From positions 1 through 42,791 of the IMG/VR virus record IMGVR_UViG_3300047386_000233: DNA of 42,791 nt; one strand, written 5' to 3'. This DNA is from a virus. Of the stretch, positions 27,075 to 42,103 are shown in pieces. A model generated the notes under the pieces. The model had not been told where the DNA came from and did no database searches. It saw nothing but the letters and a program-made list of their open reading frames with translations. Positions within the stretch are counted from its first letter, which is position 1, and every line of letters begins with the position of its first letter. A program made the translations under genes and the position numbers.

Positions 27075-30000
27075 TATTTCTCTAGTTTTTGTATTCTTGT
27101 TTCTAATTCAGCAATTTTTGCTATAAGTAAATCTATATAAGCAACAGACTTAAATCCTTCACTGTCTTCTCTTACAAACTCAGGGTTGGTTTTTTCTAAC
27201 TCTTGAGCTATAACACCATATCTTTTCTGTCCTTTTTCTGTTTTTAATTCAAAAGTTTTCCAATCTGCTTTAACTCTATTATCACATACTTTTTCAACAT
27301 TTTCTTTTAGTCTTTCGTCGGATGATAATATAAAGTTAGTTGCAGTAACGGTATTACTAAAAGTTGTTGCACCAGTTGCGCCCATAAACATTCTAGTGGC
27401 GTAACCATTACCGTTACCTAATCTAATAGCAAAACTAGAGTTTCCATCATCTCTACCTTGAAGAACTAAACCACCGTATTTAGAAAACGCTGTCTCAGTT
27501 TGAGCTGTAGGGTTTGTAGTGTATATAGCTGAACCGTCCGGCAAAGCATTTGCTTGCGCTTGCGATACGTATGATCTTATGTCAATATCTCTCCAGTTAC
27601 TAGTAGTATCTGTTGCTGATATTCTAATACCATTATTAGTTCCCGATATTACATCAAGTTTCAAGTTAGGACTTGTAGTTCCTATACCTAAGCTGCCTCC
27701 ATTAATGTAGCTGTTACCACTAGAAACTATTTTTGTTTGAAGGCTATTATCTGACCTCCTAAGCAACAGCTGAGCGCTTCCTCCATTAAACCACACTCCT
27801 GATGATGAAGTTCCCGAGCTGTTAAAACTTACAAAACCCCAATCACTACTTACCGGAGCTTGAGATCTTACAGTGCCATTAACGTGTAATTTATCGCCAG
27901 GAGTAGTCGTTCCGATACCAACGTTGCCTGTATCACCTTTAATTACCATTTTAGAGGAAGACCTCGTAATAAAATTGTGGCCATAATAACCTTGATACTC
28001 TAGCTTTGCCTCTGCAGTGCCAGTAGAGCCATTATACTTAATATTTCCGTGAACATAATAAGCTGTATCAAAAGATAATCTTTTATTGCTAAACATACTA
28101 ATACCTCCCGAAGAAACTACATCTGCATTTGTATCTGGAGCAGGTCCTAAAGTAGCTGTACCCACGTGCAGCTTAACCGCAGGATTAGTCGTACCGATAC
28201 CAACGTTACCGTTTGCTAAAACTGTTAAAGCCTCTCCAGAAGTACCGCTGTATATTCTATATCTATCGTTGTCAAATCTAAATGTTACAGGATTTGCAGA
28301 GGTAGATGATCCCTCTAAAACATACCCGTAATTAGTAGCTGAAAATAGCTTTGAGCCAAACGTAGATAGTACTTTTACGTGGTTAAAAGATGATGTACCT
28401 TGATCTATTTCTATAACATTACTACCTTGAACAGATATCTTACCAGGAAAACTAGATGTTCCATCAGCTTTGCCTATATACGTAGTATTTCTACCAGCCC
28501 AGCCGCTACTCCAGTTATCAGGTGAAGAGTTAACTTCTAACCCTTGTTCTGCATTTATATAAAGATATTCATTTGTTTGTCCTGTAGCGTAAGAATAAGA
28601 TTCTCCTGCATTCAATACAAGTTGCTGTCCATTACCTCTTATATCTCCTGCTATAGTTAATGCCCCTGAAAAAGTATCTGTGGTATTTAGTAGGTAGCTG
28701 TTTAAATCTCCTGAAGCAGGTACTCCTAAGAAAGTTCTAATAGCAGCTTTGTCACTACAAAATCTAATAAAGTCATCTGCTCCGTTATTAACCCTAAAAG
28801 CCATTCCCCCACTTATAGTGCTTTGATTTGCGTAATTAGACCTAAATAATCTTGCTCTAATATCAGCTGATGAAGTCCTATAAGCTATAGTATTAGCAGT
28901 TGCAGCAGTTGTTGCATTAGATGTTACTGTAAACGTAGTGTTGCCACTTTGATTTGCAGTTGCATCCATAGAGCCGCTTAAACCAAGACCAGAAGTTCGC
29001 CCGTCAATTTGACCATTTCCTATAGAAGCAGCGGAAGCATAATAACTTCCCTGTTGACCATCTAGTAAATCTGCATCTAAACCAGAACCTGCTCCGTCGT
29101 TGCCAGAACTCCATAACTTATACCAAGTACCCCACGTAGTTGCACTTGCTCCTATTCTTGTCCATAAGTTACCATTAGCAGTATAAGCTATGTTTATAGG
29201 CATTCCTCCAGATAAGTCTGTAGTATTGCTATAACTTCTCCAAGTCATTTGACCGTTGTAAGTACCGCCATCACTTAGCCCGTTTGTTGAATTAGACTTA
29301 AAGTCATAACGCACTCCGTTGGATGTTGTGTTTGGAACAGGATTAGTACTTCTTGTGTCAAAAGAAGGTAAAGAAACTGCATTTAATGTTACAGATCCAG
29401 AAGTTCCACCTCCATTAAGCCCACTTCCAGCAATTACTGCAGTTATATCACCTTGCGGAACTCCTGCTATAGCGTTATCTACATAAGCCTTATTAGCAGC
29501 ATCAGTAGTTGCACTTACTGTATCTACACCTTGTATTCTTCCAGTGCCTCCAAGCACTATATCTCCGCCTGATACCGTTAAGTCCCCTGCAAAAGTCGCA
29601 TTACCACTTTGAAAAAATTGTTGTTTTGAAACTCCACCGAAATCAAAAGAAAATATATCATTACTTGCTTCAGTATGCCATAACCCATAATTAGTAGCTC
29701 CGGCTAAATTTATCATAGGTTTTTTAGTGCCTGGTGTGTAAGGTACTAAAAACCCACCTGAAGCGGTTATTGTACTTGCTGCAGATATTGCCCCAGCCGC
29801 TGTAATACTCCAATTGTTACCTGATAAAGGATTGCCTCTAAAGAGATGATTATCACCACTTGAATTTCCATGGTATTGGGTGTTGGCATAATTATAGTAA
29901 GTGCTAACACCACTTTGTATATAAAAATTACCACCTGTAAAAGCAGTACGCCCTGCAGAATCACTATAAAAGTAACCATCAGTTCCATCTCCCACTCTTA

Positions 30001-41301: not shown

Positions 41302-41482
41302 AAGAAACTTATACGAAATAGCGGAGAGCGTCGCTGACATAACTCTCGAACTAATGGAAGACAGTATTGACTGGCAACTAGGCGATTATCCCGCCGACGG
41401 TGACGACTACAATGCTATACACCAACAAGTAATGCAACGTGCGATCGAAATAATGTACAAACAAAACACGATCACCCAATGA
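41291..41482 (+). CDS. Small acidic protein (63 aa)
   Basis: MSNKRNLYEIAESVADITLE, then LMEDSIDWQLGDYPADGDDY; the C-terminal residues (YKQNTITQ, stop TGA) are encoded by promoter copy 9, as in the gene ending at 40969. Helical and acidic, not recognised. Last protein gene before the RNA locus. Confidence 0.76.
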   Translation: MSNKRNLYEIAESVADITLELMEDSIDWQLGDYPADGDDYNAIHQQVMQRAIEIMYKQNTITQ

Positions 41483-41496
41483 TAATATAAATGTAA
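41457..41496 (+). promoter_or_regulatory. Early-type 40-bp promoter motif, copy 9, drives the RNA locus
   Basis: ACAAACAAAACACGA, nine bases, GATAATATAAATGTAA. No start codon of a gene follows; the first RNA stem begins 4 bases later. Confidence 0.8.
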
Positions 41497-41497
41497 T

Positions 41498-41612
41498 ACG
41501 GAAGCAAACATCGGTGGACCGGCCGGTATATCTAATAACGAGCTTAACTAGGACTCCTACACTGTAGACCCTTACTCGAGACGAAAATGAGTTAGACGCC
41601 GATCACGCTTCC
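41498..41612 (+). ncRNA. Candidate structured noncoding RNA
   Basis: Directly after promoter copy 9, GGAAGC (41500-41505) pairs with GCTTCC (41607-41612). Then, past a small internal loop, ATCGGTG (41510-41516) pairs with CGCCGAT (41597-41603). Inside lie the palindrome ACCGGCCGGT and two possible small hairpins (TAGG-ACT-CCTA; ACTC...GAGT). There is no ORF of note. It is not a tRNA, and I do not recognise the family. Confidence 0.5.
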
Positions 41613-41940
41613 TTATAATATGACTAGAGTTTTACGGTATATAGCTCTCAAGAAAATACGAAAACCGAAGGTGTACCTTGGGCTTTTCCCGATGACACTG
41701 GCAACTAGGTCAGGTTTAGTACTGAAGTAGGTAAACGTTTTTTATATAACCTATAATGACTATGGCTACCGACGGGTATGAGGTTCGAGTCCTCACTAGT
41801 TACAAAAGTTAACTGAACTGGTGAGGGATCGTTATGAACTCAGGAATGTTAACAAACCCAGCGAATAAATAACAAACCTGCGTACTGGTTGAGTGTAACT
41901 AAATCAAGGTACCGGAGAGCGGTTAGGAAATGTCTGGGTA
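41613..41940 (+). other. Inter-tRNA stretch with further pairing, no protein gene
   Basis: TGAC-TAG (41629-41635) can pair with CTA-g-GTCA (41706-41713) in competition with the tRNA-like stem at 41702. ACCCAG (41856-41861) pairs with CTGGGT (41934-41939), closing an 84-base domain that contains ACCG-GAGAG-CGGT. No ORF above 40 codons in a sensible context is seen. Confidence 0.4.
41702..41803 (+). ncRNA. tRNA-like element with T-arm and acceptor but abnormal centre
   Basis: The T-arm is perfect (TGAGG-TTCGAGT-CCTCA, 41779-41795), followed by CTAGTTA. This pairs with CAACTAG at 41702 except the first position (C-A). A 3-bp D-stem (CAG/CTG) and a 5-bp stem TAGGT/ACCTA with a 16-base loop follow. 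The remaining 25 bases include TACC-GACG-GGTA. No normal anticodon loop is found. An alternative 5' strand TAACTAG lies at 41545. Confidence 0.4.
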
Positions 41941-42005
41941 GGACGTGAATGGTTAAACGTTATACAATATGTATTGTAGTGCGGGTTCGATTCCCGCCAC
42001 GTCCA
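41941..42005 (+). ncRNA. Short tRNA-like RNA lacking a normal D-arm and anticodon arm
   Basis: Acceptor GGACGTG/CACGTCC pairs perfectly, and the T-arm GCGGG-TTCGATT-CCCGC is canonical, with discriminator A at 42005. Only 33 bases lie between them, about 8 fewer than normal. They contain a 6-bp hairpin TACAAT-ATGT-ATTGTA instead of a 7-base anticodon loop. It ends 4 bases before tRNA-Met. Confidence 0.5.
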
Positions 42006-42009
42006 CTAT

Positions 42010-42083
42010 TGCGCGGTAGAGCAGCTGGTTAGCTCGCGAGTCTCATAAACTCGAGGTCGGAGGTTCGAATCCTCCCTGCGCAC
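42010..42083 (+). tRNA. tRNA-Met (anticodon CAT)
   Basis: A complete cloverleaf: acceptor TGCGCGG/CTGCGCA, D-arm GAGC/GCTC with loop AGCTGGTTA, anticodon stem CGAGT/ACTCG with loop CTCATAA (CAT at 42044-42046), variable AGGTC, T-arm GGAGG-TTCGAAT-CCTCC. CCA is not encoded. T1-A72 pairing and lack of three GC pairs in the anticodon stem argue for an elongator rather than an initiator; a modified Ile-CAT tRNA cannot be excluded. Confidence 0.96.
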
Positions 42084-42103
42084 CTAATTTAAAAATAAAA
42101 ACA

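Follow-up and report, generated by a model that had tools for sequence, protein, structure and literature searches.

The window analysed here, a 42,791-nt stretch of viral DNA, raises the question of what kind of RNA lies at positions 41941-42005, where the two ends of a tRNA enclose a centre of 33 nt. A sequence-only reading had described perfect acceptor strands and a perfect T-arm, a 6-bp tetraloop hairpin within the 33-base centre, and an intact tRNA alongside, and had proposed a possible tRNA mimic.

Layout and predicted fold of the element

All of the described parts were recovered on the plus strand at exactly these positions (Table 1). The acceptor forms 7/7 pairs, the T-arm has a perfect 5-bp stem with the loop TTCGATT, the predicted fold reproduces the hairpin, and the tRNA alongside is a tRNA-Met (CAT), which is all that ARAGORN calls at the locus and the sole report of Rfam at gathering threshold. 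No anticodon arm of a decoding tRNA was found in the element by sequence, ARAGORN or predicted fold. The element folds at -24.9 kcal/mol (z = -3.05), as good a value being reached by 1 of 200 shuffled sequences, and the MFE fold places a short AATG/CGTT stem within the D-loop segment, whose counterparts in relatives read TGGTTAGAC and TGGTTTTGAC. Because the acceptor is followed by A and then CTA, the sequence does not encode CCA, which would need to be attached afterwards; the earlier prediction that RNase P, RNase Z and the CCA-adding enzyme would recognise the RNA is plausible.

Table 1. Features of the RNA array, the element and its neighbour (window coordinates).
Feature	Position	Strand	Basis or remark
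Phage promoter-like motif GATAATATAAATG, head of array	41481..41493	+	12 matches in window
RNA module 1, closed by GGAAGC/GCTTCC	41500..41612	+	fold z -2.30
Module J	41625..41668	+	also in L047 and L022, at other array positions
Module D, second tRNA-like element; T-arm 41779-41795, acceptor-like AACTAG/CTAGTT	41702..41803	+	
Module F hairpin (GTTAAC...GGGATCGTTATGAACTC...GTTAAC)	41808..41853	+	
Module A, ACCCAG/CTGGGT-closed RNA with GCGAATAAATAACA	41856..41939	+	
Mini-tmRNA (tag-less tRNA-like domain, TLD), main finding	41941..42005	+	fold, RF00023, 59-copy family
Acceptor 5' strand GGACGTG	41941..41947	+	A3, against G3 in nearly all relatives
D-loop segment AATGGTTAAAC, without canonical D-stem	41948..41958	+	aligned to tmRNA D-loop
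6-bp hairpin, ATGT loop, in place of tmRNA P2/MLD/pseudoknots	41963..41978	+	predicted fold; modules here in relatives
T-arm GCGGG-TTCGATT-CCCGC	41981..41997	+	
Acceptor 3' strand CACGTCC and discriminator A (42005)	41998..42005	+	
Ordinary tRNA-Met (CAT), neighbour	42010..42084	+	ARAGORN, Rfam

An identical 65-mer, with the same plain hairpin as its insert, is present in three other contigs (L003, L012 and L013); the flanks of L013 are those of the window, and the flanks of L003 and L012 differ. In relatives, which the earlier reading had suggested searching, the element is conserved, and 59 distinct copies of its shell were collected. In none of the relatives seen does a full-length tRNA occupy the locus, which rules out the simple deletion or assembly error that such a tRNA would have shown.

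Relation to tmRNA and to a family of similar copies

The interpretation of the element as a tmRNA-derived tRNA-like domain without mRNA-like domain or pseudoknots is well supported by sequence comparison. The earlier description of a tRNA-like RNA thus holds, including the missing anticodon arm, and what it had overlooked is that this is specifically the tRNA-like domain of tmRNA. In a search with an E-value threshold, the Rfam tmRNA model RF00023 aligned to 41941-42008 end to end, from model position 1 to 374 with the centre missing, and the E-value of 6e-11 argues that the element is not a chance match, at a score (31.7 bits) below the gathering value of 47. In related phage contigs, sister copies exceed the gathering value, with 53-66 bits over 81-82 nt. 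Copies of class 2 (GGGGGTG...CACCTCC, D-loop TGGTTTTGACG) do so in 10 of 37 related records despite their length of 81-82 nt, the maximum being 66.1 bits over 81 nt. Since the window copy falls below the tmRNA gathering value, and its twin in L013 reaches 29.8 bits with the generic tRNA model RF00005 (gathering 29), the tmRNA identity of the window copy rests on the family.

The window copy has the 7-bp acceptor, the D-loop without canonical stem, the T-arm and the A73 of a tmRNA. An mRNA-like domain with a tag reading frame is absent from the 33 nt between acceptor and T-arm, and so are pseudoknots, for which these 33 nt leave no room and whose region the RF00023 alignment omits with the model centre. 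In the family copies, the stretch between the shell halves showed no tag frame of the kind present in known tmRNAs. ARAGORN calls tmRNAs in 5 of the 14 loci that share the T-arm and 3' acceptor (L004, L005, L006, L009 and L010), so that tmRNAs do use this identical 3' end. The phage tmRNAs of L009 (4928-5260) and L010 (151-483) encode a tag of 22 residues, GADNKCPDFIPDWVMDEVLVAV, with an ending other than ALAA. Membership in the YrlA Y RNA-like family (RF02553) was rejected: the match, at 24.8 bits against a gathering value of 69, is low and spans two RNA genes, and was therefore treated as chance.

The terminase of the window is closest to that of MW202828 (64.7%) and also matches Flavobacterium phage elemo, 15 Cellulophaga records, and Tenacibaculum and Maribacter phages. 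A crAss-like phage had been considered and was set aside because the terminase search points to these phages; the match to Crassvirales MH552500 reads, by eye, as an ordinary tRNA-Leu. Cellulophaga phage phi38:1 carries a full tmRNA (RF00023, 87.6 bits), and one tmRNA is reported for Cellulophaga phage Calle in passages of PMC8776804. A stripped phage tmRNA would therefore be the economical origin of the element.

Several other RNAs in these phages are of note in their own right. The phi38:1 tmRNA (NC_021796.1, 26803-27164; L158, 1501-1862) is unannotated and overlapped by a hypothetical CDS, and its ARAGORN tag ends in EVAVGV, not ALAA. In Maribacter phage Panino (PP540027; L100, 3990-4110), the T-arm and CACCTCC-A precede GGGGGTGATTGGATTTGACAGC, a T-arm-first order that is the layout of a circularly permuted tmRNA; the annotated tmRNA feature of PP540027 spans 27557-27889, where two tRNA features overlap with it, and its boundaries seem to be wrong. 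MW202828.1 holds two odd, unannotated tRNA-like RNAs (L239, 224-398), neither found by ARAGORN: one of about 108 nt whose anticodon arm contains an insert, the other of about 61 nt and seemingly without that arm, at 47.3 and 37.2 bits with RF00005.

The family was assembled by scanning viral contigs. The scan for the 24-base T-arm plus 3' acceptor gave 14 stretches, and further pattern scans added more shells, for a total of 61 distinct rows; removal of spurious nested rows with the acceptors GGTTGGA and GGATGTG left 59 distinct copies. The first pattern fixed the T-arm and 3' acceptor, another acceptor bases 3-7 and the D-loop, and others the class-2 D-loop with its insert or a 15-mer of module A, so the constancy of these letters in the copies found proves nothing. 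Candidates passed the filters if they had seven acceptor pairs, a T-stem of 5 bp and a D-loop of GGT type; the 59-copy set also required GG at the 5' end, and a 28-copy set a 3' acceptor matching CACGTCC in at least 5 of its 7 letters. Both sets exclude L014, L023, L100, L101 and duplicates, and the related contigs are mostly fragments. In the 59 copies the acceptor has 7 bp, the D-loop is of the GGT type and lacks a D-stem, and the T-loop reads TTCGANT, in part because the filters required it. The discriminator is A in 58 of 59, lengths range from 65 to 149 nt, and class 2 accounts for 14 copies, with one near-constant insert instead of a variable one. Two exact-pattern scans of bacterial and archaeal species genomes returned 0 stretches each. 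No SmpB gene was found in any of the 37 records searched, so SmpB of the host would have to serve.

G3.U70 is the alanine determinant. Owing to the pattern and filter bias, it was counted in the 28-copy set only, whose members were found without a pattern fixing base 3, and there 26 of the 28 distinct copies retain it. Pair 4-69 and three pairs of the T-stem vary on both sides, while 3-70 remains G.U in these 26 copies, a pattern pointing to selection for alanylation. In the window type and in L047 this pair is A3-U70 instead, so the window copy is probably not alanylated. Judging from the sequences, charging has probably been abandoned in the branch of the window type and L047, and the window copy, given its A3-U70 pair and its empty hairpin, has probably kept processing and fold and lost charging.

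In full tmRNAs, the P2 helix leads to the tag frame and the pseudoknots. The helix at this position averages 6.4 bp over the 59 copies, against 3.3 bp in shuffled inserts, and by the same measure it has at least 5 bp in 50 copies and fewer in 9. In the 39 class-1 copies, 190 of 234 P2-position cells (81%) are paired, versus 65-98 of 234 (28-42%) when the register is slid. The shell covariation score in an 18-sequence alignment (A3, from which L127 and L109 were dropped) is 0.347 against 0.103 for shuffled data (0/500 reaching it); the P2 helix is just 55.7% paired there because classes 1 and 2 differ in register. Alignments A1 and A2 contained misaligned rows, and no counts were taken from them. 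The shells hold inserts of many kinds, several of which recur outside TLDs in the arrays of other contigs, and several others of which occur once and not outside TLDs. At the level of sequence and predicted pairing, it is shown that in the relatives many different modules fill the place of the lost part and a covarying helix closes them. By the same comparisons, the element is a member of a family with exchangeable modules at the anticodon/MLD position.

The array of RNA modules upstream

The element stands at the end of an array of RNA modules headed by a promoter-like motif (Table 1). With at most one mismatch, this motif has 12 matches in the window versus 0.86 expected, 10 of them on the plus strand between 37868 and 42346, and in that span and orientation the repeated promoter-like sequence GATAATATANATG stands ahead of small genes and of the RNA array. 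A sigma-70 and terminator scan gave no useful result, and no ORF of at least 40 aa lies between 41483 and 42103. Module D, in whose sequence no recognisable anticodon arm could be read, recurs in many related arrays, with a 7-bp version in L033; the fold of 41625-41804 is no better than shuffles (z = 0.51). The module F motif is found elsewhere in arrays and also inside TLD inserts, and module A keeps the same core under closing stems that differ by locus (CCCAG/CTGGG, TGTGCAG/CTGCACA, CTCAG/CTGAG). Inspection of the modules by eye gave no support for a group I intron, a self-cleaving ribozyme or an rRNA mimic.

Module motifs cluster in 39 stretches (the window itself, L001 as its copy and some same-contig pairs being counted), and their order varies. 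Where a TLD is recognised, it is mostly the final array element, except that in L110 and L138 it is followed by a J-like motif and in L033 and L113 by D-type modules. Between the window and L047, both flanks are exactly shared (131 and 94 bases, with 41481-41611 identical), two blocks, F+A (41804-41937 in the window) and J+D (41625-41788), are swapped, and the TLD inserts are different. Block 41857-42008 reappears in L003 with one base different and in another context. On these comparisons, module order in the array is shuffled between phages.

In many loci, a gene for a Cys-rich protein of about 60 residues with paired cysteines (MYCKCG...GYKTC..CS...SVHRAWRRK; L003, L048, L051, L107, L122 and others) ends just 5' of the array, and in L122 the TLD follows immediately upon the stop codon of this gene. 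This protein was not found in the window; searches of PHROGs and Pfam gave 0 families, and tblastn in phage records gave no match.

Possible functions and comparison with known systems

On sequence grounds we lean, by a modest measure, towards an RNA that is processed like a tRNA, ends in CCA and acts as scaffold or end-cap for exchangeable modules of RNA, with a link to trans-translation in most relatives. The array would be transcribed from the phage promoter motif at 41481, and RNase P and RNase Z (or exonucleases and the CCA enzyme) would excise the TLD in the fashion of a tmRNA. Stable and compact, the CCA-ended shell would then serve exchangeable modules as scaffold or end-cap, either carrying or delimiting them. 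As G3.U70 is kept in most relatives, AlaRS, EF-Tu and SmpB would recognise these too, and such copies would become tag-less competitors in trans-translation. A fuller version is offered tentatively: flavobacterial-type phages may have made the TLD of tmRNA into a natural scaffold, whose shell, alanylatable in most copies, caps recombining and nestable modules that slot into the former place of the tag message. The module array might then be an RNA kit for counter-defence or host takeover.

The TLD could instead be a decoy of trans-translation that binds SmpB and EF-Tu, charged in the G3.U70 relatives, and enters stalled ribosomes without a message, so that tagging is blocked or bypassed to the benefit of the phage and the inserts are tolerated passengers. 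The features bound by AlaRS, EF-Tu and SmpB are G3.U70, the D-loop, the T-arm and A73; their retention (G3.U70 in 26/28) and the lack of a known-tmRNA-like tag frame between the shell halves agree with a decoy. However, the window copy has A3-U70, the shuffled modules outside the TLD are left unexplained, and phage RNA decoys of SmpB were not found in the literature searched; we regard this explanation as rather unlikely. Decay is a weaker candidate still, whether of a phage tmRNA or as a functionless scar of an ssrA attachment site. A3-U70 in the window copy would fit it, as would L002, which retains just the T-arm and 3' acceptor beside the same tRNA-Met. Nevertheless, the 5' and 3' halves are paired with compensatory changes across the family, the block shared with L003 is the same save one base in a different context, and an attachment scar would retain the 3' half only, which makes a remnant improbable.

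A split or mini-tmRNA that still tags, with GCGAATAAATAA (Ala-Asn-Lys-stop), located in module A or in some inserts, as a very short message, might be suggested by the presence of the motif inside the TLD insert in L008 copy 2, L062, L017/L033 and L200. The same core, however, occurs in hairpins outside any TLD (L051, L067) and is missing inside 55 of the 59 distinct TLDs. It looks like a structural motif, and the invariance of the exact 15-mer was selected, this being a search pattern; continued tagging is very improbable. An ordinary tRNA pseudogene with a deleted anticodon arm is hardly credible: the RF00005 score of the L013 twin lies just over gathering, but no relative seen has a full tRNA at this locus, and sister copies exceed the tmRNA gathering value.

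A tmRNA is usually viewed as a single molecule with two inseparable halves. Here, phages appear to keep the tRNA half, with the alanine identity pair in most copies, and to swap the message half for exchangeable structured RNAs. If the scaffold interpretation is true, ribosome rescue could be probed or blocked by natural means, the laboratory tRNA scaffold would have a counterpart in nature, and pull-down could identify the targets of a set of RNA motifs not described before. The recurrence of the same shell with many swapped-in RNA pieces suggests a previously unnoticed phage RNA toolkit. A tag-less phage tmRNA was undescribed in the literature searched, which lay outside preprints and most subscription journals and included passages of PMC11590407, PMC8776804 and PMC8545117.

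With tmRNA (ssrA, RF00023) and phage tmRNAs such as that of phi38:1, the family shares the acceptor (with G3.U70 in relatives), the D-loop without canonical D-stem, the T-arm, A73 and, where the anticodon stem would be, a P2-like helix. It differs in having neither tag frame nor pseudoknots and in measuring 65-149 nt instead of about 360, and the window copy differs further by A3-U70. Permuted tmRNA (RF04321, a weak 13.3 bits on the window) is likewise a tmRNA with altered layout, whereas the order here, 5' acceptor, insert, T-arm and 3' acceptor, is unpermuted. YrlA Y RNA-like RNAs (RF02553) also have a tRNA-like module within. In the laboratory tRNA scaffold for recombinant RNA, foreign RNA is reportedly placed in the anticodon stem; both systems hold foreign RNA in a tRNA-like shell, and the one described here is natural, tmRNA-derived and carried by phages, with a putative carrier function.
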